Shown here: positions 6,806 to 19,490 of the stretch, one piece after another | Numbering within the stretch: position 1 is the first letter of the stretch | Layout: every line of letters begins with the position of its first letter | DNA from: Oscillospiraceae bacterium | Lineage (GTDB): Bacteria; Bacillota; Clostridia; Oscillospirales; Ruminococcaceae | Assembly (NCBI GenBank): GCA_017427265.1 | Contig: JAFRTG010000021.1 | Coordinates: 124,001-188,000 of the forward strand | DNA: 64,000 nucleotides | Reading direction: 5' to 3' | Position numbers and translations under genes: made by a program | Notes under the pieces: model-generated | Told to the model about the DNA's origin: nothing | Seen by the model: the letters and a program-made list of their open reading frames with translations, nothing else | The model's database searches: none

Positions 6806-8479
6806 ATGAACGCTGTATCCCAACCGCTGCCGGAAACGATCAGCCTTCTGTATCCGGACAGCCCGGACAGCTGCTTCCCGGTCAGCAGCATGACGGCCAA
6901 TGATCTTGACATCTCCTTCCTCGCGGAAAACGTCACCGAAAACACGACGGAGAAAGCCGCGGTCAGCAAAATCCTCATGCAGATGCCGAAGGAGCCGCAC
7001 TGCATCAAATACCGCAGAGCTGTATATACCGAGCTGCAAAACGATCCGGCGCTCTGCAAAGAATTGTTTGAGATTTGCGATTCGCTGCGGTTTTCGTTCA
7101 CCGACCGCCCGATCGGAATCGGCGGACAGTCCACGATCTGGGAGCTGATTCAGCGCTTCCGGTCGCTGGAGCACTATATCCGTTCCGTGACAAAGCTGCG
7201 CGACCTGTTTGAAGGCTGCAGCTTTCAGTCCGAAGGCATGAAGCGCCTGGCCGCATATATCCGGTCAATCAGTCAGGACAGCGGCTATGATGAGCTCCTG
7301 AAAGATATTGCGGTACTGGACGATGATGTCTACAGCATTCACAGCATTACGCTCGGCGTCAATCTCAATGCGGATTATTATCCGGCGGAGGTCGGCATTG
7401 TTTCGCTGAACAGATGGTTCTATGACGAACAAACCGCGCTGCAGAACTTTATGGCATTTCACCGGAAGGATCATGTCTCGGACACCGACCTGCATCCCTT
7501 TTCCATGGAGAAGCATTCTGACGGTTGGGACTGGTTTGAGAAGCACTGCTACGGCATCCAGACGCCGCACCGCGCGAACGATACCGTGCTGATGAACAAT
7601 CTGACATCCATCATTGAACGGATGCTGCCCTCGCTGACGGCCAAGCTCAAAAAGGTGCTGGACAAATATGTGCAGATCAGCGGCAGGACGCTTGCCGGTC
7701 TTGCAGATGAGCTGCTGTTTTATCTGCGGTTTATCCGCTTTGAGCAGAAGCTCCGGGAAAACGGATTCCCGTGCTGCAGCGGCGAGGCTTCATCGGATGA
7801 CACCGTCCTCAGGGATTTTTACAATATCAAGCTCGCCGTGCTTTCCATGCAGGGGAAGCTCGGAGAAACCGTGGTACGCAATGATATCACATTTACCAGA
7901 GAGCAGACGGTTCAGATTCTGACCGGACCGAACCGCGGCGGAAAAACCATTCTGACGCAGGGGATCGGGCTTGCATTCCTGCTGTACCAGAGCGGCGTAT
8001 TTGTGCCTGCCGCATCTGCAAAGATCCGCTGCTGCGACGGCATCTATACGCATTTTCCGGTCGAGGAGGAGCGTACTGTCTCGCTCGGCCGGCTCGGAGA
8101 GGAGGCCGAACGCTGCCGAAAGATCTGTCAGACGGCCACCGCCGACAGCCTGCTGCTGTTCAATGAATCCTTTGCGACAACCAGTCATACGGAATCACTT
8201 TATATTGCAGAGGATGTGCTGAAATATCTCTGCTGTCTCGGCGCGCGTACCTGCTTCAATACGCATATGCATGAGCTGGGGGAGCACTGCGAAAATCTTT
8301 CCGCATCGGAATCCGCAGTCTGCGGAGCGGTCAGCATCGTCATGGAAAACGGTGCAGACAACAAATATAAAATCAGCCGCAGAAAGCCGGACGGCAAAAG
8401 CTATGCACATGTGATTGCGCAGCAATACGGCATTACCTTTGAGCAGCTCAGCGGAATGCACGGTATGTGCGCGGAATAA
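6806..8479 (+). CDS. MutS-family ATPase without mismatch-recognition domain
   Basis: The 557-residue protein has a helical lever/clamp-like region (about residues 50-350) and a C-terminal MutS domain V. Walker A is GPNRGGKTILTQ (about residues 374-385); the Walker B region reads LLLFNESFATTS (about 451-462), and a final THMHEL follows. The N-terminal mismatch-binding domain of MutS and the Smr nuclease of MutS2 are both absent. The Walker B aspartate is replaced by asparagine (NES rather than DE), and GGKT replaces GGKS. ATG 6806 has AAAGGAA 8-10 bases upstream. The role is unknown; a DNA-structure-dependent ATPase is the safest reading. An esterase gene follows after 13 bases. Confidence 0.75.
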   Translation: MNAVSQPLPETISLLYPDSPDSCFPVSSMTANDLDISFLAENVTENTTEKAAVSKILMQMPKEPHCIKYRRAVYTELQNDPALCKELFEICDSLRFSFTDRPIGIGGQSTIWELIQRFRSLEHYIRSVTKLRDLFEGCSFQSEGMKRLAAYIRSISQDSGYDELLKDIAVLDDDVYSIHSITLGVNLNADYYPAEVGIVSLNRWFYDEQTALQNFMAFHRKDHVSDTDLHPFSMEKHSDGWDWFEKHCYGIQTPHRANDTVLMNNLTSIIERMLPSLTAKLKKVLDKYVQISGRTLAGLADELLFYLRFIRFEQKLRENGFPCCSGEASSDDTVLRDFYNIKLAVLSMQGKLGETVVRNDITFTREQTVQILTGPNRGGKTILTQGIGLAFLLYQSGVFVPAASAKIRCCDGIYTHFPVEEERTVSLGRLGEEAERCRKICQTATADSLLLFNESFATTSHTESLYIAEDVLKYLCCLGARTCFNTHMHELGEHCENLSASESAVCGAVSIVMENGADNKYKISRRKPDGKSYAHVIAQQYGITFEQLSGMHGMCAE

Positions 8480-8492
8480 AGGGGGAGGGCAG

Positions 8493-9407
8493 ATGTCATT
8501 TCAGACGCTTCTGTTCCGTCTGATGTGCAGCCGGAGCGATAAAAAACGAGACAAGGGACTGACCGATCCGCCGGAGGTCGCACACAATGACAATATTTGC
8601 TACGGAACAGACAGAAAATGGCAGATTCTTGATGTCTACCGTCCGAAGAATGCGGAAGGAAAACTGCCGGTTCTCGTCAGCTTTCACGGCGGCGGATGGG
8701 TCTACGGAACGAAGGAAATCTACCGTTATTATTGTATGGAGCTTGCAAAGCAGGGCTTTGCCGTTGTCAATTTCACTTACCGGCTCGCACCGGAAAACCG
8801 GTTCCCGGCGGGGCTTGAAGATCTCAGCGCGGTGTTCGCATTTGTGCTCCGGCATGCCGCAGAATACGGGTTTGATACCGGAAAAATTTACGGCATCGGA
8901 GATTCCTCCGGCGCAATGGGCATGGCGATTTATGCCTGCGCACTGACAAATCCTGCCTTTGCAGCGCAGTTCCCGGTCAGAATGCCGGAAGGACTTGTTC
9001 TGCGCGGTCTTGGACTGAACTGCGGCATGTTCGATACGGAAGGCATGCGTGAGATTCTGCGTGACTTGCTGCCGAAGGGCCGTGAAGAGGAAACGCTCCG
9101 GCTGCTGAGCAGTCATTCCCATGCGGCAAAACAGTTTCCGCCGAGCTTTCTGATGAGCGCGGAGGGCGATTTCAACAAGGAGCCGACACTGGCCTTCGGC
9201 AAAGTGCTGGAACAGCTCGGCGTACACTGCTGCACCAAAATTTACGGTGATGCACAGAATCCGCTCGGCCATGTGTTTCACTGCGATGTCCGGAGTGCAG
9301 ACGGCCGGCAGGCCAACAGGGATGAGCTGGACTTTTTCAGGTCACTGAAGGATACAATCAATGGGGATATAAGACATGAAAGAGGAAAAAACGACGAATT
9401 TATGTGA
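8493..9407 (+). CDS. Alpha/beta-hydrolase esterase (HSL/acetyl-esterase type)
   Basis: A 304-residue soluble enzyme. It has the oxyanion-hole motif HGGGW (about residues 66-70), the nucleophile elbow GDSSGA (about 137-142) and a late PLGHVFH segment supplying the catalytic histidine. This set defines hormone-sensitive-lipase-like carboxylesterases that deacylate small esters, in gut bacteria often acetylated sugars. ATG 8493 follows GGGGGAGGG by 4 bases; an earlier in-frame ATG lies inside the MutS-like gene and lacks a ribosome site. It is co-transcribed with that gene, and its 3' end overlaps the next gene by 32 bases. Confidence 0.82.
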   Translation: MSFQTLLFRLMCSRSDKKRDKGLTDPPEVAHNDNICYGTDRKWQILDVYRPKNAEGKLPVLVSFHGGGWVYGTKEIYRYYCMELAKQGFAVVNFTYRLAPENRFPAGLEDLSAVFAFVLRHAAEYGFDTGKIYGIGDSSGAMGMAIYACALTNPAFAAQFPVRMPEGLVLRGLGLNCGMFDTEGMREILRDLLPKGREEETLRLLSSHSHAAKQFPPSFLMSAEGDFNKEPTLAFGKVLEQLGVHCCTKIYGDAQNPLGHVFHCDVRSADGRQANRDELDFFRSLKDTINGDIRHERGKNDEFM

Positions 9408-9873
9408 ACATTGTGAATACGGCAATCGGTATATTGATCTTGGAAAATGTCCCGAATGTGATACCGGACGAATTGTCGGAGACTTGCATACAAGAGCGAT
9501 CTTTTGTTCCAATCTTCATAGAATCACAGCAGTTGCAGTTGATTTTTGCGGGAAACAAAACTGTATGACAGGAGAACTCGTATTTAGAAATTATGAGATC
9601 ACAATTACTTCAAAGCTGTCACGGGAACAACTGATTGCTGTCGGAAAAATCGTTGAAAAAACGCCTGTACAAATATATAAAGCTATAGAGACAGATAACT
9701 CATTTTGTGACAACGCAGACTTTTATCAGATGCTTGCATTGGGAAAATACCTGTATGAACACAGTATTTCTTTTCAGACTGTTCCGGAAATACCGATACT
9801 GTACGGTTTTATGGAATGTTTTCCGAATTTAGCGAAGGATTATTCATGGGTGTTGGAAATGAATCAAGAATAA
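9376..9873 (+). CDS. Hypothetical protein with N-terminal zinc ribbon
   Basis: A 165-residue soluble protein. The N-terminal 30 residues hold CEHC and CPEC, a four-cysteine zinc-ribbon pattern. The middle (LSREQLIAVGKIV and what follows, about residues 75-100) looks like a small helical segment reminiscent of the L7/L12 C-terminal fold, as seen in other small bacterial proteins. I do not recognise the family. It overlaps the esterase gene by 32 bases, is clearly more AT-rich than its neighbours, and ends just before the dispersed hairpin repeat at 9877. These points suggest recent acquisition. Confidence 0.55.
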   Translation: MKEEKTTNLCEHCEYGNRYIDLGKCPECDTGRIVGDLHTRAIFCSNLHRITAVAVDFCGKQNCMTGELVFRNYEITITSKLSREQLIAVGKIVEKTPVQIYKAIETDNSFCDNADFYQMLALGKYLYEHSISFQTVPEIPILYGFMECFPNLAKDYSWVLEMNQE

Positions 9874-9876
9874 AAA

Positions 9877-9911
9877 GAGCTGTCCGATTCGTCAAATGAA
9901 TCAGACAGCTC
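9877..9911. terminator. Hairpin repeat, copy 1 (bidirectional terminator)
   Basis: GAGCTGTC-c-GATTC / GAATC-a-GACAGCTC forms a 13-bp stem with one mismatch, flanked by T-rich tracts on both strands. The stem and about 20 bases of 3' flank recur at 26800-26833. Confidence 0.75.
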
Positions 9912-10320
9912 TTATCTTTTCATATGCTTCTATTATAACATGGTTTACGGATAAATGTAAGCGTTGAATTCAAATCTATTAGACTATAATTCCGAATATA
10001 TGGTTCTTTCTCTAATAATATGCTATTAAAATTGCGGTTTATTGTGTCTTTCTCGTCTACACTGATAATCCAGCAAATACGAAGAAAACAACTAATTGAA
10101 AGAAGCGGCTATTTCGTCAGCGGAGGCATTCTCCTGCCCCGTAGTTGACCAAAAGTTGCCCACAATATGACAAGATAAGCGAGTATATCAAAAGAGCAGC
10201 AGTATTGTTTCAAATTCAACACTGCTGCTTTTCAATCAAAAAGCACAAACGCAATTATGTTAAAACAAGAAACAAGTTATATTAGGCACCACAAGAAACT
10301 GCACTTTTCACGAATTCCTA
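9912..10320 (+). other. Intergenic region at the left end of the integrated element
   Basis: No convincing gene is seen. A 42-codon ORF (10020-10148) ending SGYFVSGGILLPRS may be a gene remnant; it lacks a clear ribosome site. Its stop falls in a GTTGACCAAA motif (10145-10154) that recurs near the right end of the element. A terminator follows at 10195. Confidence 0.4.
10195..10233 (+). terminator. Intrinsic terminator
   Basis: AGCAGCAGT/ACTGCTGCT stem followed by TTTT. It insulates the helicase operon promoter at 10321 from upstream transcription. Confidence 0.7.
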
Positions 10321-10349
10321 TTGAAATTCAATATGAAATGTGTTATAAT
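10321..10349 (+). promoter_or_regulatory. Sigma-A promoter of the exonuclease-helicase operon
   Basis: TTGAAA, 17-base spacer, TATAAT. About 35 bases of leader precede the first ATG. Confidence 0.75.
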
Positions 10350-10383
10350 ATACTATAAGCAAATTGTTCATAGGAGGCGCGGA

Positions 10384-10971
10384 ATGATGACTGAACTTGA
10401 TATCATGCAGCGGGCAAAACAATACATTGATGCACTTGCAAACGGATACGACCCGCTTTCCGGACAGCCTGTCCGCGATGACGATGTTGTCAATCAGGTG
10501 CGGATCTCGCGCTGCCTGTTTTATGTTTCCGGTGTCCTGCAAAAGGTGATTGATAACGGCGGAGAAATCAAAAAGGTTAAACTGCCGCGAGCAAAGAAGG
10601 CATTGTTTTCCGTAACTGCTGAACAAATATCACAGATTCATCCATATTCATCAGAGGTCTCGGCAACAAGAGTTGCTGCAATTCTGAATAGCTTGATTGA
10701 TACTGATAAAATGCAGAAGCTGAAAACAACAGATATTACCGGATGGCTACTCTCCATTGGAATGCTGCAAGACATTGAGACTTCAACCGGAAGAAAGCGG
10801 AAAATTCCGACATCGAATGGCGAAATGCTAGGCATGAAAGAAGCGTCATTTGTCAATGAGCAAGGCATCCCGACACAGTATACTGTGTATGATAAAAACG
10901 CGCAGCAGTTTATTCTTGACAACATAGAAGCAATTATTGCATACATTCGTGAAAGTGAAGAAACAAAATGA
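10384..10971 (+). CDS. Uncharacterised small partner of the exonuclease-helicase fusion
   Basis: A 195-residue soluble protein. The N-terminal half (LANGYDPLSGQPVRDDDV, RISRCLFYVSGVL) is helical. The C-terminal half (LLSIGMLQDIETSTGRKRK, then LGM and a QQFILDNI helix) looks like a winged-helix or antirepressor-type DNA-contact module, judged by pattern only. TAGGAGG lies 7 bases before ATG 10384. Its stop overlaps the start of the 1591-residue helicase (ATGA), so the two are translationally coupled and probably act together. I recall similar small proteins beside RecQ-like helicases in Firmicutes, but no function is known to me. Confidence 0.65.
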   Translation: MMTELDIMQRAKQYIDALANGYDPLSGQPVRDDDVVNQVRISRCLFYVSGVLQKVIDNGGEIKKVKLPRAKKALFSVTAEQISQIHPYSSEVSATRVAAILNSLIDTDKMQKLKTTDITGWLLSIGMLQDIETSTGRKRKIPTSNGEMLGMKEASFVNEQGIPTQYTVYDKNAQQFILDNIEAIIAYIRESEETK

Positions 10972-13900
10972 AACCAATTCTATTCTTTGACGCAGAAATC
11001 AACCCGGAAAACGGGCAGATACTGGACATCGGCGCAGTCGGTTCGGACGGGCGTCAGTTTCATGCTGCCTCTGTGGGCGAGTTTTCTTCATTTGTCAAGG
11101 AATACGAATGGTTCGGCGGTCACAATATCCTCAGCTTTGATCTGAAATATCTGGAAGCGGCGATGCCGCAGGGCGATTCGGTGCAGTACATCGACACGCT
11201 CTGCCTGTCGCCGCTTTTGTTTCCCGCAAAGCCCTATCACCGGCTGCTGAAAGATGATAAATTACAGACAGATTCACTCAGCAATCCGCTTGACGATGCC
11301 GTAAAATCATGGGAGCTGTTCTGTGATGAGGTTGCGGCATTTGAATCGCTGGACAATACACTGAAACAAATATGGTATCTTCTGTTGCATGATTTGCCGG
11401 AATTTTCGGGCTTATTTGCATATCTCGATTATACTGCGGATCACGATGCCGCAGACCTGATACAATCCTATTTCAGCGGAAAAATCTGTGCCAATGCGCC
11501 GCTGCCGTTTATGGTTATGAATCACCCGCGGGAGCTTGCCTATTGCCTTGCGCTGATCTCTGCGGATGACCGCCATTCGATCACGCCGCCGTGGGTGCAG
11601 ATGAATTATCCGCTGGTGGACAACTATATGCGTATCCTGCGGAATCACCCGTGCGAACAGGGCTGCCCGTACTGCGCGCAAAAGCTGGATGTCCGCACCA
11701 AGCTGACAGAGATTTTCGGGTATCCGGAATTCCGAACCTATGAGGGCGAGCCCTTGCAGGAACGCGCCGCAGATGCTGCGGTACATAACAAATCGCTGCT
11801 TGCGATCTTTCCGACCGGCGGCGGAAAATCTATCACATTTCAGCTTCCGGCGCTTATGGCAGGCGAAAACGCCAAAGGTCTGACCGTTGTCATTTCGCCG
11901 CTGCAATCGCTGATGAAGGATCAAGTGGATAATCTTGCAGAACGCGGTATCGCCGATGCCGTGACGATCAACGGTCTGCTGAGTGCAGTCGAGCGTACAG
12001 AAGCTATCGAGCGCGTTTTGAGCGGCATCGCATCCATCCTCTATATCTCGCCGGAATCGCTGCGTTCCCGCACGATTGAAAAGCTGCTTCTATCGCGCAA
12101 TGTCGTGCGGTTTGTCATTGATGAAGCACACTGCTTTTCTGCGTGGGGACAGGATTTCCGCGTGGATTATCTCTATATCGGCGACTTCATCCGGCAATTA
12201 CAGGAGAAGAAAAACATCAGCTATTCCATTCCGGTTTCCTGCTTTACGGCAACTGCAAAGCAAAAGGTCATTGAGGACATCCGCGACTATTTCAAGCTGA
12301 AGCTGGGTCTGGATTTAGAACTGTATGCGACCTCTGCCGCACGCAGCAATCTGCGCTATGAGGTGCTGTATCAGGCGGATGACGGCGAGAAATACGATAC
12401 CCTGCGCAGACTGATCGAGCAGAAAAACTGCCCGACGATCATCTATGTCTCCCGCACAAAGCGCACGGTGCAGATCGTGCAGAAGCTGACCGATGACGGC
12501 TATTCCGCAAGACCGTTCCACGGAAAAATGGACAGCAGCGAAAAAGTCGAGAATCAGGAAGCGTTTATCGCCGGAACGGTACAGATCATTGTTGCGACCT
12601 CTGCATTCGGCATGGGCGTGGACAAAAAGGATGTCGGGCTGGTCATTCACTATGACATCTCCGATTCGCTGGAAAACTATGTGCAGGAGGCGGGCAGAGC
12701 CGGACGGGATCCGATGCTCAACGCGGACTGCTATGTGCTGTTCAATGAATCCGACCTTGACAAGCATTTCATCCGGCTGAACCAGACAAAGCTCAGTCAA
12801 AGCGAGATTCAGCAGGTATGGCGTGCCGTCAAAAAGATGGCAGGAAGCCGTGAATCATTCAGCCGTTCCGCACTGGAAATTGCGCGGGAAGCCGGCTGGA
12901 GCGAAAGCGGTCCGGAAGTGGAAACACGAGTCAAAACAGCAATCGCCGCGCTGGAAAATGCCGGATACATCGAACGCGGACAGAACATTCCCCATGTGTA
13001 CGCGACAAGTATTATGGTGAAAACGATGCAGGAAGCATCCGAGCGCATTCGCACATCCGACCTGTTTGATGAACGCACAGAGCAGAATGCAATCCGCATT
13101 GTCAAAAGTCTGATTTCGGAGAAAAACACAAGTCGCCGTGCAGATGACGCCGAAAGCCGCATTGATTATCTGGCAGATACGCTTTCCATGTCAAAGGAAG
13201 ATGTGATCGAAGCGGTCAATTTGATGCGGCAGGAAAAGCTTCTTGCCGATGCGCAGGATATGAGCGCTTATATCAAAAAGGCGGATTCTGAAAACAAATC
13301 TATGCAGGTGTTAATGCGCTTTATGCAGCTCGAACAACTGCTGCTGAATATCCTGACCGACGAACCGCAGACCGTGAATCTGAAAGAGATCAATGAGCAG
13401 GCAGAGCAGCAGAACATCAAGGGTACATCGGTCAAATCGCTGAACACGATTCTGCTGTACTGGACGATCAAAGGCTATATACAGAAAACCTATTCCCGCA
13501 CGGAAAAAGCGCGGGAGATCATCCCGAAGATTGATATTGTAAAGCTGACAGATTTGTATATCAGCCGCATTGCATTGGCGCGGTTCATTGTCGGATTTCT
13601 GTATGACAGAGCTGCGAACGAGCCTGCAAATCCGAAAGGCGAAATACAGGTTGCATTCTCGGAATTGGAGTTGCTGGAAGCCTACAATGCACAACTCACA
13701 ACCGTTACGCCGATTACCGCAGAAGCCGTCCGGGATGCGCTGCTGTATCTTTCAAAAATCGAAGCGCTGACGCTCGAAGGCGGCTTTCTGGTGCTGTATC
13801 AGACAATGCACATCCGCCGTCTGGAAATGGACAACCGTATTCAGTATAAGCAGGAGGACTATAAACAGCTCAACGAATTTTATAAGCAGAAAATCCAGAT

Positions 13901-15743
13901 GATCCACATTGTCGGCGAATATGCAAACATGATGGTGCGCGACTACAACGAGGCATTGCAGTTCGTCAGCGACTATTTCCAGATGGATTACAAGGCTTTT
14001 CTTGCAAAGTATTTCAAGGGCAACCGTCTGGGCGAGATCAACCGCAATATTACGCCTCAGAAATACAATGAACTCATGGGCAAGCTCTCCGACCGGCAGC
14101 GCGAGATCATCGACGATGAATCATCGCAGTATATTGTTGTGGCGGCAGGTCCGGGCAGCGGCAAAACGATGCTGCTGGTGCATAAGCTGGCGGCGCTGGT
14201 GATGCTGGATGATGTAAAATACGAACAGCTTCTGATGCTGACATTTTCCCGTGCAGCAGCAACGGAATTCAAGTCGCGCCTGCTGGCTCTGATCGGCAAT
14301 GCTGCAAAATTTATCGAGATCAAGACATTTCATTCCTATTGCTTTGACCTGCTTGGCAAAATCGGCTCACTGGAACAGTCGGAGAATATCGTGCCGCGTG
14401 CCGTGGAGATGATTCGTGCCGGAGAGGTCGAGCAGATTCGCGTCACAAAGACGATCGTTGTCATTGACGAGGCGCAGGATATGGATGCAAATGAATTTGA
14501 CCTGATTCGTGCGCTGATGGAATGCAATGCGAATATGCGTGTGATCGCGGTCGGCGACGACGACCAGAATATCTATGCGTTTCGCGGCTCTGATTCAAAA
14601 TACATGCGTTCGTTTATCACGGAGCACGGCGCAAAGCAGTATGATTTGCCTGATAATTACCGCAGTACATCAGAAATTGTTGCGCTTGCAAACCGTTTTG
14701 CTGAAACAATCAAAGGACGGCTGAAATCTGAGCCAATCAAAGCGGTACGGACGGATGCGGGCATTGTTCGGCTCATCCGGCACAAAAGCTCGAATCTGGA
14801 ATATCCGATTGTGCAGAATCTCATCAGCAACCGCACACCGGGCAAAACGATCTGTGTGCTGACATGGACAAATGACGAGGCACTGCGCGTGAACGGATTG
14901 TTGCGGCAGATGCAGATTCCGTCAAAGCTGATTCAGAGCAACGACGGCTTTTCGCTCTATGATCTCGCGGAGCTGCGGATGTTTTTGAAACTGACCGGCA
15001 AAGAGAATCACCCGATTATCTCCGATGAGCAGTGGGAACAGGCAATCACTGATCTGAAACGGATATACAGCAGCAGCCAGTGCCTGACGCTCGTGCTGAA
15101 TCTGCTTGACCGGTTTTCATCGGTCAATGAAAAGAAATACCGCTCCGATCTGGAGAGCTTTATCCGGGAATCGCAGATGTCAGATTTTGCATTTCCGGAT
15201 GACGATGAAATCATTGTATCGACAATACACAAGGCAAAGGGGCATGAATTCGACTGCGTGTATCTGCTGCTGAATCATGTGGATATTTCCGACAATGAAC
15301 GGAATCGGGCGCTGTATGTCGGCATGACCAGAGCAAAAACGGAGCTGTATCTGCATTACAACAATCATGCGTTTGACCGGTTTTCAGAGCAGATTATTGA
15401 CGATACCGTGCTGTATCCCGAGCCGAATCAGATTATGCTTCAGCTCACGCACCGCGATGTTGTGCTGAGCTTCTTTATGGATAAAAAAGCTGCTATCCTA
15501 AATCTGCGCAGCGGTGATACATTGACGCTGAAAGGCAAATGCCTGTATGCACAGATCGGCGGGAAAACGATACGGGCTGCGATTCTGTCAAAAGCCGCCC
15601 AGGATACGCTGAACCGGCTGTATGCAAAAGGGTATCGTGTGCAGTCGGCGCGGATTCGGTTTGTTGTCGCGTGGCGGAATCAGGATGAAACGGATGACAA
15701 GGAATATGCAATCATTCTGCCGGATGTGTTCCTTGAAAAATGA
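10968..15743 (+). CDS. DEDD exonuclease-RecQ-UvrD fusion helicase
   Basis: This 1591-residue protein joins three nucleic-acid enzymes. Residues 1-150 look like a DnaQ/DEDD 3'-5' exonuclease: FFDAE (DxE), HNILSFDLKYL, then SNPLDDA. A CEQGCPYC zinc cluster lies near 225-235. The SF2 RecQ core follows: PTGGGKS (about 282), VIDEAHCFSAWG (about 383), TATAKQK and QEAGRAGRD (about 572). A winged-helix-like region spans about 620-700. The C-terminal third is a UvrD/Rep SF1 helicase: GPGSGKT (about 1061), VIDEAQD (about 1164), GDDDQNIYAFRG (about 1195), STIHKAKGHEFD (about 1417) and MTRAK (about 1454). An approximately 80-residue tail has no family I recognise. All motor motifs look intact. It overlaps its small partner by ATGA. 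Confidence 0.88.
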   Translation: MKPILFFDAEINPENGQILDIGAVGSDGRQFHAASVGEFSSFVKEYEWFGGHNILSFDLKYLEAAMPQGDSVQYIDTLCLSPLLFPAKPYHRLLKDDKLQTDSLSNPLDDAVKSWELFCDEVAAFESLDNTLKQIWYLLLHDLPEFSGLFAYLDYTADHDAADLIQSYFSGKICANAPLPFMVMNHPRELAYCLALISADDRHSITPPWVQMNYPLVDNYMRILRNHPCEQGCPYCAQKLDVRTKLTEIFGYPEFRTYEGEPLQERAADAAVHNKSLLAIFPTGGGKSITFQLPALMAGENAKGLTVVISPLQSLMKDQVDNLAERGIADAVTINGLLSAVERTEAIERVLSGIASILYISPESLRSRTIEKLLLSRNVVRFVIDEAHCFSAWGQDFRVDYLYIGDFIRQLQEKKNISYSIPVSCFTATAKQKVIEDIRDYFKLKLGLDLELYATSAARSNLRYEVLYQADDGEKYDTLRRLIEQKNCPTIIYVSRTKRTVQIVQKLTDDGYSARPFHGKMDSSEKVENQEAFIAGTVQIIVATSAFGMGVDKKDVGLVIHYDISDSLENYVQEAGRAGRDPMLNADCYVLFNESDLDKHFIRLNQTKLSQSEIQQVWRAVKKMAGSRESFSRSALEIAREAGWSESGPEVETRVKTAIAALENAGYIERGQNIPHVYATSIMVKTMQEASERIRTSDLFDERTEQNAIRIVKSLISEKNTSRRADDAESRIDYLADTLSMSKEDVIEAVNLMRQEKLLADAQDMSAYIKKADSENKSMQVLMRFMQLEQLLLNILTDEPQTVNLKEINEQAEQQNIKGTSVKSLNTILLYWTIKGYIQKTYSRTEKAREIIPKIDIVKLTDLYISRIALARFIVGFLYDRAANEPANPKGEIQVAFSELELLEAYNAQLTTVTPITAEAVRDALLYLSKIEALTLEGGFLVLYQTMHIRRLEMDNRIQYKQEDYKQLNEFYKQKIQMIHIVGEYANMMVRDYNEALQFVSDYFQMDYKAFLAKYFKGNRLGEINRNITPQKYNELMGKLSDRQREIIDDESSQYIVVAAGPGSGKTMLLVHKLAALVMLDDVKYEQLLMLTFSRAAATEFKSRLLALIGNAAKFIEIKTFHSYCFDLLGKIGSLEQSENIVPRAVEMIRAGEVEQIRVTKTIVVIDEAQDMDANEFDLIRALMECNANMRVIAVGDDDQNIYAFRGSDSKYMRSFITEHGAKQYDLPDNYRSTSEIVALANRFAETIKGRLKSEPIKAVRTDAGIVRLIRHKSSNLEYPIVQNLISNRTPGKTICVLTWTNDEALRVNGLLRQMQIPSKLIQSNDGFSLYDLAELRMFLKLTGKENHPIISDEQWEQAITDLKRIYSSSQCLTLVLNLLDRFSSVNEKKYRSDLESFIRESQMSDFAFPDDDEIIVSTIHKAKGHEFDCVYLLLNHVDISDNERNRALYVGMTRAKTELYLHYNNHAFDRFSEQIIDDTVLYPEPNQIMLQLTHRDVVLSFFMDKKAAILNLRSGDTLTLKGKCLYAQIGGKTIRAAILSKAAQDTLNRLYAKGYRVQSARIRFVVAWRNQDETDDKEYAIILPDVFLEK

Positions 15744-15762
15744 ACATTATTGTATTATTAAA

Positions 15763-15800
15763 CCCTGCTTGCTGAGCAATCAGCGGGCAGGGCTTTTTTT
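15763..15800 (+). terminator. Terminator of the exonuclease-helicase operon
   Basis: CCCTGC...GCAGGG stem with inner GCTGA/TCAGC pairing, followed by seven T, 20 bases after the stop codon. Confidence 0.85.
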
Positions 15801-16223
15801 GCACCTGATTATGTCAGAAAATACTGATATACAATATGAGCAAGTCATATCCTTTTTCATAGAGTCTCATTGTGCATTCATACAAACTTTCCGCAAGCAT
15901 GAAAAAAACAGCCGTTTTGTGAGGATATAAGTGAGAGTGCCGCACAGATTGCTCAATCCGAGGCAGTGACATCAAGCGCGGATTATGCAATCCTACAAAC
16001 CTGTTCCCGAAAATGGAAAAAAGTGCCGTTTTATGTGATACCTCATGAGGGAATCCTCCGGTATCAGCTTGGGAGCATATGACAGCGCAATGCACAAAAC
16101 GATGCCGGCCGTTTTGTGCAGTCAGACAAAGTTTCGAAAAAAGACTATTATTTTTCCGCGATTCTGTAGGGCTGTATGAGAGGCAGTTCTCTCAAAAAAT
16201 CAAAAATCAAGGAGGTCACAAAA
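15801..16223 (+). other. Non-coding region with repeated GCCGTTTTRTG motifs
   Basis: No gene is seen. A degenerate unit of about 49 bases occurs twice (15873-15921 and 15986-16035), each running from TGCAnTCnTACAAAC to GCCGTTTTRTG. A third motif copy at 16108-16118 forms the right arm of an 11-bp inverted repeat (16091-16101 with 16110-16120). Such repeats beside an excisionase gene suit binding sites for Xis, a replication protein or a relaxosome protein. Confidence 0.5.
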
Positions 16224-16511
16224 ATGAAAAGAAACCAACATGAGGTCATTGACCGCATCCTCGATCTGCTGACTGAACTCGTCGATGATACGCCTGCCGA
16301 GAAGCAGACCGAAACCAAGCCCATGGAAATGCTCACGATCAAGGAATGCACCAAAGCAGTCAGGGGTGTTTCCGAGCATACCATCCGCAAACTGGTCGCA
16401 CAGGGGCGTGTCCGCTATATCCGTACCGGCGAGGGCAAACGCGGCAAAATCCTCATCAGTAAACAGTCGCTGCTCGACTATCTGTGCGGAGCAGATAATC
16501 GCAGCAAATGA
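16224..16511 (+). CDS. Excisionase-like helix-turn-helix protein
   Basis: A 95-residue protein. The C-terminal 55 residues (MLTIKECTKAVRGVSEHTIR, then LVAQGRVRYIRTGEGKRGK and ISKQSLLDYL) form the MerR-like HTH_17 domain found in excisionases of integrative elements, with a wing that contacts DNA. The N-terminal 35 residues are helical. AAGGAGG lies 8 bases before ATG 16224. It sits upstream of the relaxase and integrase genes of the same element. It could equally be a small regulator of mobilization. Confidence 0.7.
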   Translation: MKRNQHEVIDRILDLLTELVDDTPAEKQTETKPMEMLTIKECTKAVRGVSEHTIRKLVAQGRVRYIRTGEGKRGKILISKQSLLDYLCGADNRSK

Positions 16512-16716
16512 AGGTGGCTTCATTTGCTGCTGTCACGGGCGCAAGCCCGAAATTGAGGGAGTGCAGAGGGAACGGCTGCCCCACGGACTATTTGCCTGCA
16601 AATAGTCCTAGTGGGTTACAACTAATCCGCTGATTAGTCCGGTATCCGTACACCTCCGGAAACGCTTGCCCGACAGAAAAAACCATACCCCTCAAAAAAG
16701 AAAGGAGCCGGTACAT
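16512..16716 (+). other. Candidate origin of transfer (oriT)
   Basis: The 205 bases before the MobV relaxase hold a long interrupted palindrome. CCCAC (16580-16584) and GTGGG (16611-16615) enclose perfect 10-base arms GGACTATTTG and CAAATAGTCC around CCTG. A second palindrome ACTAATC/GATTAGT follows at 16621-16638. MobV relaxases normally act on hairpin-bearing oriT sites directly upstream of their own gene. The nick position is not assigned. Confidence 0.5.
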
Positions 16717-17943
16717 ATGAGCTTTGCGATCATCCGCAATGAAAACCATAAGATCGGTAATGTGCCATTGTCGGAACGGCATAATGAACGCCGAAACAAA
16801 CATTACAGCAATGAAGACATTGACCTTTCACGCTCGGAGCAGAATTATCATCTGAAAAAGCCGGAGGGCAGTTATCTTGACACCTTCTATGCAATCCGTG
16901 AAAAGGAACACCTCAAAGGAAATCTGCGTGTGAACGGGAGCAAGCAAAGCACGATCCTTTGTGAATTTGTCATGACCTCGGACAAAGCCTATTTTGACCG
17001 CATCGGTCCGGAACGGACGAGACAATTCTTTGAAACCGCATACCGTTTCGCCTGTATGAAGGCGGGCGGGGAACAGTATATCGTGTCTGCCGCAGTTCAC
17101 ATGGACGAGACCACGCCGCATATGCACCTGATGTTTATTCCGGTTGTGCAGGGGAAAGACCGGAAGGGGCAACCCTGCAAACGCATCAACTGCTCCGAGT
17201 TCTGGAAGGGACGCGACAGCTATTCCCGTTTGCAGGATGAGTATCACGAATGGATGACCTCACACGGCTTTGACCTGGAACGCGGCACAAAGGGCAGTAC
17301 CGCCGAGCATCTTTCCACGGAGGAATATAAACTGAAAAAGGTACAGGAGCAGATTGCAGAAGCGACAGGACATATTTCGGAAATAGACCATATTTCAGAA
17401 ATCAGGTCAAAGCAGCTTCCGGCAAATACATCACTTCTCAAGACATCTGATCTTGAAACACTGACTGCCGCGGCGAAAGGATATGCAGCGGTAAAGAAAT
17501 CGGAGAGTGAGATGCAGGCGCTGAAAACGGAGGTATCTACGCTTCGCAGCGAGAATGAATCGTTGAAAAATGAGAATGCTGCGCTATCTGCTAAATATCA
17601 GGAGCTTGACTATCAGTTCGGGGAATTCTATGATAGCGTTGCAGACGAAGTCGCATTGCAGCGGGAGAATGAGCGATTACGACACGAGGTACAGACTATC
17701 GGCAATCAGTATCATGATGTATGTCATGATCTGGAATTGGTAACAGTGGAGCGGGATACCCTGACACAAGCCGTTCAGGAACAATCTATGCAAATTCGTA
17801 CACTTACAGAAAAGCTGACCGCGCTGCAAAGGCTGCATCAGGCATTGACGGACAAATTCAACCGTGCGATGCGCTTCATTGAACAGATGAAGCTGAAAGA
17901 GAAACTGGAGGCGTTTTTGCGTCCGCATCAGCCAAAAAGATAA
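16717..17943 (+). CDS. MobV/Pre-family relaxase
   Basis: A 408-residue protein. The N-terminal 200 residues are a Mob_Pre relaxase. It begins with the conserved SFAIIRNENHK, has the paired-histidine metal motif HMDETTPHMHL (about residues 128-138), and the basic lead-in RHNERRNKHYSNEDID. From about residue 205 it is a long coiled coil rich in E, K, L and Q, typical of MobV C-termini that mediate dimerisation. The enzyme should nick oriT and stay bound to the 5' end during transfer using another element's conjugation machinery. GAAAGGAG lies about 10 bases upstream of ATG 16717. Confidence 0.88.
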   Translation: MSFAIIRNENHKIGNVPLSERHNERRNKHYSNEDIDLSRSEQNYHLKKPEGSYLDTFYAIREKEHLKGNLRVNGSKQSTILCEFVMTSDKAYFDRIGPERTRQFFETAYRFACMKAGGEQYIVSAAVHMDETTPHMHLMFIPVVQGKDRKGQPCKRINCSEFWKGRDSYSRLQDEYHEWMTSHGFDLERGTKGSTAEHLSTEEYKLKKVQEQIAEATGHISEIDHISEIRSKQLPANTSLLKTSDLETLTAAAKGYAAVKKSESEMQALKTEVSTLRSENESLKNENAALSAKYQELDYQFGEFYDSVADEVALQRENERLRHEVQTIGNQYHDVCHDLELVTVERDTLTQAVQEQSMQIRTLTEKLTALQRLHQALTDKFNRAMRFIEQMKLKEKLEAFLRPHQPKR

Positions 17944-17946
17944 TTC

Positions 17947-17975
17947 TTGACTTTAAAGCGTGATTATGGTATAAT
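17947..17975 (+). promoter_or_regulatory. Sigma-A promoter of the integrase
   Basis: TTGACT, 17-base spacer, TATAAT, starting 3 bases after the relaxase stop. It is one of the strongest promoter matches in the window, so the integrase has its own promoter. Confidence 0.85.
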
Positions 17976-18011
17976 GACAGTGATATATTCGCTGTCGGAA
18001 ACGGAGGTATT

Positions 18012-18062
18012 ATGAAACAGACAGTGAAAGCCGTCAATACAAGAAAGGCGGCGGTCAAATGA
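18012..18062 (+). CDS. 16-residue leader peptide of the integrase
   Basis: A tiny ORF (MKQTVKAVNTRKAAVK) has a GGAGGT ribosome site 3-4 bases upstream of ATG 18012. Its TGA overlaps the integrase ATG (ATGA at 18059-18062). The peptide is basic. The likely purpose is translational coupling of the integrase, whose own start has only a weak ribosome site. It is too short for family assignment. Confidence 0.5.
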   Translation: MKQTVKAVNTRKAAVK

Positions 18063-19252
18063 ATATTCAGGAACGAAGAAACAAGGACGGCAAGATTACA
18101 TCTTACCGCATCCGTGTGTTCGACCATCGAGACACGCAGACCTATAGGCAGGTTTTCAGAACACTATCAATCAAGTACGATTCTTCCAAGTCGGAAGCAT
18201 GGAACAGGAAGAACGCCGAAAAGCAGGGCATGATCTTTGAAAAGCAGATCGAGGAGCATACGATCAGCGATTCTCACATCACCTTTGACAGCTATTGCGA
18301 TTATGCAATCGGGATGAAGGAACAGGCAGGGCTTTCACCCTCGACGATTTATAGTTATTCCGGATACCGAAAGCAAATTGCACCTTACATCGGACATATC
18401 CAGTTGAAGCAGCTTACCCCCGCGGCGATTAACAAGGCTTACTCGGATATGCTCGGCACGGGCGTATCCAAGGCGACGGTGTATCAGTATCACTTGTTCA
18501 TCCATTCGATGCTTGCAATGGCATTCAAAGAAAACCTGATTCCACGCAACTACGCCAGTGCAGCGATGCCGCCGAAACGCGATGTGAAAGAGGTGCAGGC
18601 GCTCAACGCGGACGAGATCAACGCATTTTTCACGGCTCTGTATGGTGACAGTAAGCATTATATGTATCAGGTGCTTTTCAGCGTGATGCTTGCAACGGGC
18701 TGCCGAATCGGTGAAATCTGTGCGCTGACATGGGACAACATCGACTTTGAGACGAATCGCATTCACATTTGCCGACACTTTGTTTCTGTAAAATCTGGCA
18801 CACAGATTGTTGAGGGATGCAAGACCAATGCCGGTGATCGCTGGCTAGCGCTTGATGACGGCATCATGGAAATGCTCAGGGAATACCGTGCGTTCTATCT
18901 CAAGAAAGCTGAGAGCTTCGGTAGTAAGTGGGATTATGAAGCTAATGCTGTGTTCTATGCTGAGAAGCGATATGGCGGCTGTATCAATCCAGACACGGTA
19001 AGGGCATTTCTGCAATGTTTCACAAGGCAGCACGGTCTGCCTCGGATTCACCCGCATATGTTCCGTCACACTTCAGTCAGCCTCCAGCTGCAGGCTGGCA
19101 TCAGTATAGCAGATGCTGCCAAGCGAGCAGGACACGCCAGACCAGATGTCACCCTGCGAATCTACTCCCACGCGCTGAAAAAGAACGATCTGCACTGCTG
19201 CGAGGCAGTCACGAAGGTCATGCCGAAAATGCCCAAGCGGGAAGCCGGTTGA
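18059..19252 (+). CDS. int: Tyrosine recombinase (integrase)
   Basis: A 397-residue phage-type integrase. It has an N-terminal arm-binding domain (about 1-65), a SAM-like core-binding domain (about 75-165) and a C-terminal catalytic domain. The catalytic residues are visible: arginine in TGCRIGE (about 221), HMFRH (about 340-344), the later GHARPD histidine and the nucleophile tyrosine in RIYSH (about 375). It should insert and excise the element with the Xis-like protein at 16224. Translation is coupled to the leader peptide by ATGA overlap. GTTGACC motifs just downstream (19309-19341) may be arm sites. Confidence 0.9.
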   Translation: MNIQERRNKDGKITSYRIRVFDHRDTQTYRQVFRTLSIKYDSSKSEAWNRKNAEKQGMIFEKQIEEHTISDSHITFDSYCDYAIGMKEQAGLSPSTIYSYSGYRKQIAPYIGHIQLKQLTPAAINKAYSDMLGTGVSKATVYQYHLFIHSMLAMAFKENLIPRNYASAAMPPKRDVKEVQALNADEINAFFTALYGDSKHYMYQVLFSVMLATGCRIGEICALTWDNIDFETNRIHICRHFVSVKSGTQIVEGCKTNAGDRWLALDDGIMEMLREYRAFYLKKAESFGSKWDYEANAVFYAEKRYGGCINPDTVRAFLQCFTRQHGLPRIHPHMFRHTSVSLQLQAGISIADAAKRAGHARPDVTLRIYSHALKKNDLHCCEAVTKVMPKMPKREAG

Positions 19253-19411
19253 AAAGCCACAACAAGCTGCAATAATTCTATCTTCCTGCATCGTACAGTA
19301 GCGTAAAAGTTGACCGATTGTTGACCAAAGTACATAGTTGACCGTTGAAATCGCCTGAAAACAGCGTGTTTTCGCGGGAAGGGTTGCAAATTACGGCTTT
19401 ATATGCTATAA

Positions 19412-19450
19412 GGCGGCAGTGCCGCCCTCCATTGATCTAAAGTTCACCGG
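19412..19450 (+). repeat. GGCAGTGCC intergenic repeat, copy 2
   Basis: GGCGGCAGTGCCGCC palindrome, then CTCCATTGATCTAAAG and TTCACCGG. Nearly identical to 29730-29766 and related to 186-222. Confidence 0.7.
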
Positions 19451-19490
19451 CTGCTCAAATCACCCCAAGACAAGCGGATATATCAAAAAC

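Follow-up and report, generated by a model that had tools for sequence, protein, structure and literature searches.

The window, a stretch of 64,000 nucleotides from an Oscillospiraceae bacterium (contig JAFRTG010000021.1), encodes a protein of 1591 residues in which a DEDD exonuclease-like domain, a RecQ-type helicase core and a UvrD/Rep-type helicase core follow one another in a single chain. Our data reveal that this is a real and widely spread fusion, representing one wide family, and that in the window the large protein travels as cargo of an integrative mobilizable element (IME). Judged from its parts and surroundings, it would be a mobile, ATP-driven helicase-nuclease by which foreign or broken DNA is attacked or remodelled, and its most likely role is that of an antiphage (or anti-plasmid) effector, a reading to which we give about an even chance. 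We favour it because of the domains and their motifs, the IME ends in differing flanks, the patchy presence of the protein, the defence genes among its neighbours and the few viral carriers. The gene and its immediate partner are laid out as follows.

10384..10971, + strand: small partner, 195 aa; its C-terminal part (residues about 78-183) is related to the C-terminal extension of some RecQ helicases
10968..15743, + strand: exonuclease-RecQ-UvrD fusion, 1591 aa; coordinates and length confirmed
10968..11342, + strand: DEDD exonuclease-like domain, residues 1-125 (D8, E10, D58, D110), from motifs, alignment and hhalign
11487..11675, + strand: conserved cysteine site (C174, C229, C233, C236), from the alignment
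11691..12782, + strand: RecQ-type superfamily 2 (SF2) core, residues about 242-605, from Pfam, NCBIfam and solved structures
12783..14069, + strand: inter-motor region, residues about 606-1034, no known domain found
14070..15407, + strand: UvrD/Rep-type superfamily 1 (SF1) core, apparently compact, residues about 1035-1480, from Pfam, alignment and solved structures

An ATGA overlap at 10968-10971 couples the 195-aa gene (10384-10971) to the 1591-aa gene; lengths, positions and coupling had been given correctly in the initial annotation, which was made from the sequence alone.

No Pfam model matches the N-terminus of the large protein, and among twelve relatives RNase_T and DNA_pol_B_exo1 were each found in two, weakly (best E 0.004 and 0.002, respectively). 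Profiles were also compared with hhalign: against a DEDDh reference of 18 RNase_T domains from related genomes, the N-terminus reaches a probability of 95.1 in local and 95.7 in global alignment (E 3.4e-8 and 3.7e-9), and motifs I, II and III line up, while eight column shuffles reach at most 1.2, the reversed profile 0.2 and the profile of the small partner 0.1. The motifs themselves are D8/E10, H52-N53-D58 and D110. In our alignment of 89 full-length rows, four of them duplicates of other rows, D8 and E10 are conserved in 85 (four gaps), D58 in 87 (two gaps) and D110 in 88 (one gap), so that no row lacks any of these four acids except through a gap. The DEDD-like domain proposed earlier (DxE, HNxxFD, late DD) is thereby upheld. 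The residues that define the subfamilies are not in place: position 105, five before the last Asp and aligned with the His of RNase_T members, holds Asn in 76 of the 89 rows and Ser in 12 (one gap), and position 106, four before the last Asp, where a DEDDy domain has its Tyr, holds Asn in 81 and Asp in seven (one gap), which places the domain in neither DEDDh nor DEDDy. Among solved structures nothing related to the N-terminus was found (best sequence E 0.35, unrelated). Because the profile and the acids match but Asn or Ser occupies the place of the His, the DEDD fold is likely and the predicted activity less certain; the exchange may signify altered or weak catalysis.

Behind this domain the four cysteines are all present, except in the locus L067, which has a gap at one of them, and in three distant proteins from Aliarcobacter, Nostoc and Deinococcus, in which at most one of the four is left. 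Such joint conservation, and largely joint loss, fits a metal site, such as the zinc cluster suggested at the outset.

The two motors are well defined. Pfam places DEAD at 262-437 and Helicase_C at 474-580, and the NCBIfam model recQ_fam scores 277.3 bits (cut-off 219.8); in the UvrD part the Pfam models UvrD-helicase, from 1041, and UvrD_C, to 1466, lie above their cut-offs. The Walker A lysine and the DE residues of both motors occur in 89 of 89 rows, and the same invariance holds for the whole sets K287, D385, E386 and H388 of the RecQ core and K1066, T1067, D1167, E1168, Q1200, R1232 and R1455 of the UvrD core. Solved structures match the helicase parts only, with RecQ proteins up to 1.7e-56 and UvrD/PcrA at about 1e-23. 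Both motors had been called complete. For RecQ this is true of the two-lobe core only, since the profiles show neither RQC nor HRDC between the motors (no Pfam match; hhalign 0.4% for residues 592-760 and 0.2% for 620-1030). A 95.9% hhalign match to RQC over residues 572-860 included the end of the RecQ core, and was rejected as it disappeared once the core was omitted. For UvrD the SF1 core motifs are in place, and Pfam covers only the ends of its models, so that the motor looks compact.

In a scan of species genomes, at least 573 stretches code for the N-terminal domain. Eighty of these loci were examined; the frame is full-length in 60, truncated by an end in 13 and broken or split in seven. 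By record title the carriers include Bacillota, Bacteroidota, Deltaproteobacteria and Cloacimonadota; within the class, the domain occurs in 18 of 291 genomes, the window's own counted. Eight of 663 matching plasmid records cover at least 80% of the large protein, and the carriers among ten plasmid records include Bacteroides, Aliarcobacter, Sulfitobacter, Allochromatium, Nostoc and Deinococcus. None of the phage records reaches 80% coverage. Of 2.9 million viral contigs six carry the N-terminal domain (L292-L297), five of them with a full-length protein; these may be mobile elements and not phages, because in two an upstream gene presumably encodes a large serine recombinase, to judge from its first residues. 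In the tree, members of a phylum largely group together, a few exceptions apart (four changes for Bacteroidota and five for Bacillota, against shuffled means of 19.3 and 18.4), although long branches (Deinococcus, Aliarcobacter, Nostoc, Allochromatium and L068) are of unsure placement.

The initial annotation had also supposed that the gene resides on a mobile element, and this element can be delimited.

10018..19411, no strand assigned: IME, about 9.4 kb, from the limits of homology with copies elsewhere in unrelated flanks
10018..10028, + strand: left end core ATATGCTATTA, also at the left junction in L209
19401..19411, + strand: right end core ATATGCTATAA, the same or nearly the same at the right junction of five copies with differing flanks
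16176..16511, + strand: excisionase-like helix-turn-helix protein (Pfam HTH_17 28.0 bits, cut-off 27; NCBIfam excise below cut-off)
16717..17943, + strand: MobV-family relaxase (Pfam Mob_Pre; NCBIfam MobV 133 bits, cut-off 100); the frame is open from 16666, with ATG at 16717
18059..19252, + strand: tyrosine integrase (Pfam Phage_integrase); a further copy in the genome has 82% identity

In a genome of another species (G296) homology with the window runs from 10015 to 19423, and the flanks are unrelated; at the integrase end it stops at 19423 in two relatives and at 19411 in three further copies. The right core is shared by L208, L205, L211, L100 and L101, and the consensus of the element ends is ATATGCTATWA, with flanks that differ among copies. 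A relative's copy, with a large protein 95% identical to that of the window, has identical element ends in unrelated flanks. No conjugation machinery was found among the nine open reading frames scanned (6806-19252), so the element combines an integrase, a relaxase and defined ends with the lack of such machinery that characterizes an IME. A repeat at 10142-10193 and 19452-19488 was considered as the element ends and rejected, because relatives' copies place the ends at 10015-10028 and 19401-19423; the stretch 10142-10189 is found again in relatives, close to the left side of their elements. When the G296 flank was used as query for an empty site, the window's own genome matched only from query base 318 on, and an uninterrupted site was not found. 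Sequences related to the right flank of the window's element occur elsewhere in the genus.

Several further observations concern this element and its surroundings. Its right flank (19401-19451) represents one copy of an intergenic repeat that contains a GGCGGCAGTGCCGCC hairpin; in L298 (3.0 copies) and L299 (3.4 copies) this repeat forms tandem arrays with a 103-base period. In related genomes (L298, L299, L300, L301) the tandem repeats lie near a promoter-like sequence that ends in the TATGCTAT core, the insertion point. An Rfam scan of window positions 1-30000 yielded two tRNAs only. The 82% identical second integrase copy (L100; G000:C2:61260-62447) has a different relaxase-like gene as its neighbour, and the same genome contains an integrase fragment of 83% identity (L101; G000:C34:8719-9120), from which it follows that the integrase serves more than one element. 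In L205, L207 and L210 the left end is followed by additional cargo ahead of the small gene, among it proteins of 346-351 and of 278 aa. L211 and L212 are element remnants that have lost the middle of the large gene but retain the small gene. Outside the element, at 6806-8479, a 557-aa protein matches the MutS ATPase domain V alone.

The small and large genes had been described as a two-gene module, a description that the loci do not support in this form: the small partner is optional, and most family members are without a small gene. In a six-frame scan of 121 loci, which include duplicate records and short contigs, a free small gene lies near the large gene in just seven, and its C-terminal domain forms the tail of a nearby RecQ in two more. 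The pairing is borne out in most close relatives of the window but not across the wider family. Among 30 genomes of the genus, one of them the window's own, five have the large protein whole (G000, G296, G292, G318 and G319), its gene is split over two contigs in G315, and remnants occur in G291 and G293. The ATGA overlap is found in the window, G319 and G315; in G292 a 154-aa gene separates the two genes, and in G296 the small gene is found on a different contig, at the end of which the large gene begins. In G318 (= L107) the large protein shares 94-95% identity with its counterparts in G292 and G319, but a 610-aa ATPase of the candidate family PDC-S06 (PADLOC 4e-123) precedes the large gene and replaces the small one; a TIR-like, ThsB-related protein is encoded three genes upstream, and homology with the window is restricted to the large gene (10967-15739). 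ATPases homologous to that of L107 precede the large gene in L109 and L110, and in L160 and L170 (99% identical RecQ) a RecQ without the tail overlaps its start. A free small gene adjoins the large gene in L059 (same strand, 64-bp gap) and in L292 (opposite strand).

The window's small protein matches nothing in Pfam, NCBIfam or PADLOC, and its family, which 21 of the 291 genomes in the class possess, gives only scattered single-member matches in scans of this type; the search of solved structures (best E 0.94) and that of plasmids gave no match. Its C-terminal part matches the ends of RecQ proteins in L089 (gene at 8103-10289; 1.3e-25), L155 (11657-13906; 1.1e-20) and L161 (7497-9764; 3.6e-11), with a small-protein profile built without L089. 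For the 13 RecQs of the genus no relation to the small protein was found. The tailed RecQ stands directly before the large gene in L161 and three genes after it in L155. The tail domain is without a Pfam name and occurs also as a free protein of 180-200 aa in many Clostridia genomes. A second small gene, 66% identical, lies in the window's own genome without a large gene (L069 9654-10247; G000:C16), near a distant tyrosine recombinase (29%; G000:C16:7424-8254).

A fixed housekeeping locus, which the initial annotation had named as an argument against mobile defence, is not what we see: no neighbour family occurs in more than eight of 107 loci, and some small groups share a locus. Among six Desulfosporosinus loci, a number of them with short flanks, no neighbour up to six genes away is common. 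The survey of neighbours for defence genes, likewise proposed there, revealed known and candidate systems that adjoin the large gene. In L137 a complete Gabija (GajA and GajB) lies directly upstream, and other neighbours within two genes are PDC-S06 (L107), restriction enzymes of type IV (L143) and type III (L180), RT_UG5-nitrilase (L179), PDC-S41 (L178) and SoFic (L150), each with a PADLOC E below 1e-110. HNH-type neighbours were found in five loci by clustering, and PADLOC agreed on one (L142, 1.9e-19). At a threshold of E <1e-60, picked after the lists were seen, at least 11 of the 186 proteins encoded up to two genes away match PADLOC versus none of 108 in the control (one-sided Fisher 0.006), a control that is small, comes from two Clostridia genomes only and differs also in its sampling of ten genes per locus. 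The strong neighbours comprise the eight named, another PDC-S06, one HNH and at least one of PDC-M41B, PDC-M30B and PDC-S14. The 186 remain of 188 after removal of two pieces of the large protein; proteins below 140 or above 1100 aa were excluded, and 20 loci (copies, window relatives and fragments) were left out. The control comprised 108 proteins in 20 stretches, with a best PADLOC match of 7.8e-56. Pfam was applied to the neighbour set A4 only.

The choice of threshold and the nature of the control weigh against a role in defence, and so do several other points. Counted by locus, the excess is 9/81 versus 0/20 and not significant (p 0.12). The large gene beside Gabija in L137 is split in two frames, and the DEDDh histidine is absent from the N-terminal domain. 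Many loci are ordinary chromosomal ones, beside what we take to be metabolic genes (his, trp, ispH-like); a neighbour in Desulfotignum presumably resembles SbcCD; and some relatives share a locus (L052/L125, L053/L157, L061/L062, and likewise L168/L169).

Among known proteins, human WRN shows the same order of an N-terminal DEDD-type domain and a RecQ core, and WRN chains match the RecQ core at E 1e-38. WRN has a DEDDy tyrosine, whose expected place in the present family holds Asn (81/89) or Asp (7/89); furthermore, the window protein adds a UvrD motor, and no RQC or HRDC was found in it. A bacterial fusion of a DEDD exonuclease with an SF2 helicase is known in DinG of Bacillus subtilis, but that helicase is XPD-like and not RecQ, and the abstract mentions no UvrD motor (PMC12525004). 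The best PADLOC match of the large protein, DpdF of the Dpd system (5e-94), is confined to the RecQ core, reaches 204 bits against an NCBIfam cut-off of 550 and leaves the exonuclease and UvrD parts unmatched. Gabija is an antiphage system of GajA, a nuclease-ATPase with an OLD-type fold, and the UvrD-like helicase GajB. It shares with our protein a nuclease and a UvrD-type helicase, but its nuclease has another fold, a RecQ part is lacking and the two components are separate genes; GajA is not among nine window proteins at E 0.01, and GajB models match the UvrD part alone. In total, 67 PADLOC models match the large protein at E 0.01; among the matches listed, DpdF, GajB, PsyrT, RT-helicase and C3a193 each cover one helicase part and no model spans the protein, in agreement with the earlier statement that it was not recognised among named defence systems. 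Full-length relatives on plasmids bear in RefSeq the name "RecQ family ATP-dependent DNA helicase" (long forms), a generic name with no function attached. A name for the fusion was not found in titles and abstracts, a literature in which few subscription papers were covered, and passages of PMC6390638 concern two ordinary RecQ genes. We tentatively suggest, at less than an even chance, an unnamed, widespread defence family in which exonuclease, RecQ and UvrD form one chain with a His-replaced DEDD site, mobile through several phyla and with exchangeable front partners, namely the free RecQ-tail protein, a whole RecQ or the PDC-S06 ATPase.

The neighbours favour defence, and the protein's parts would fit repair equally. 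It is possible, if somewhat doubtful, that the large protein is an accessory DNA repair or fork factor, a second and horizontally spread RecQ/UvrD machine for fork restart or double-strand ends that would serve the host chromosome and plasmids. RecQ and UvrD are repair helicases, relatives in Aliarcobacter and Deinococcus are encoded by large plasmids, close to genes for replication and partition, others occupy ordinary chromosomal places, some loci are common to relatives, and the clustering of the tree by phylum fits long residence. However, the protein is patchy within the genus, the Desulfosporosinus loci lack a common neighbour within six genes and strong defence genes directly adjoin the large gene, all of which speak against this reading.

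Two further explanations appear unlikely. The large protein might serve the maintenance or transfer of the element itself by processing its single-stranded transfer form, given that it makes up the main cargo of the stretch from the left end to the excisionase-relaxase-integrase block and that relatives occur on MobV-typed plasmids in Aliarcobacter and Nostoc. Nevertheless, most family members are found where no such element is seen, the relative with the ATPase partner has only the large gene in common with the window, and the other integrase copy adjoins a different relaxase. It is just as improbable that the small and large proteins form an obligate two-subunit complex in which the large protein is inactive alone. 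The ATGA overlap in the window and two relatives, the separate adjacencies in L059 and L292 despite the rarity of small genes, and the RecQ proteins near the large gene that end in the small-protein domain (L155, L161) would agree with such a complex, but the scarcity of free small genes beside large ones, and the different partner of a large protein that is 94-95% identical to small-partnered ones, argue against it.

If the large protein is indeed an antiviral effector, both motors would translocate 3' to 5' on single strands, like RecQ and UvrD, and would open a DNA end, a fork or a recombination intermediate, at which the exonuclease domain would trim 3' ends. The front partner, be it a RecQ-tail-like protein, an ATPase or a whole RecQ, would be optional and may tune loading or triggering. 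A common protein filed as "RecQ family helicase" would then be a self-contained antiviral machine with two motors and a nuclease in each chain, and the exchange of partners before near-identical large proteins would show how such systems get re-wired. Should it act in repair, bacteria would possess a mobile, WRN-like enzyme for the processing of ends or forks. In either case the DEDD site without its histidine poses a biochemical question, namely whether the exonuclease is active or not.

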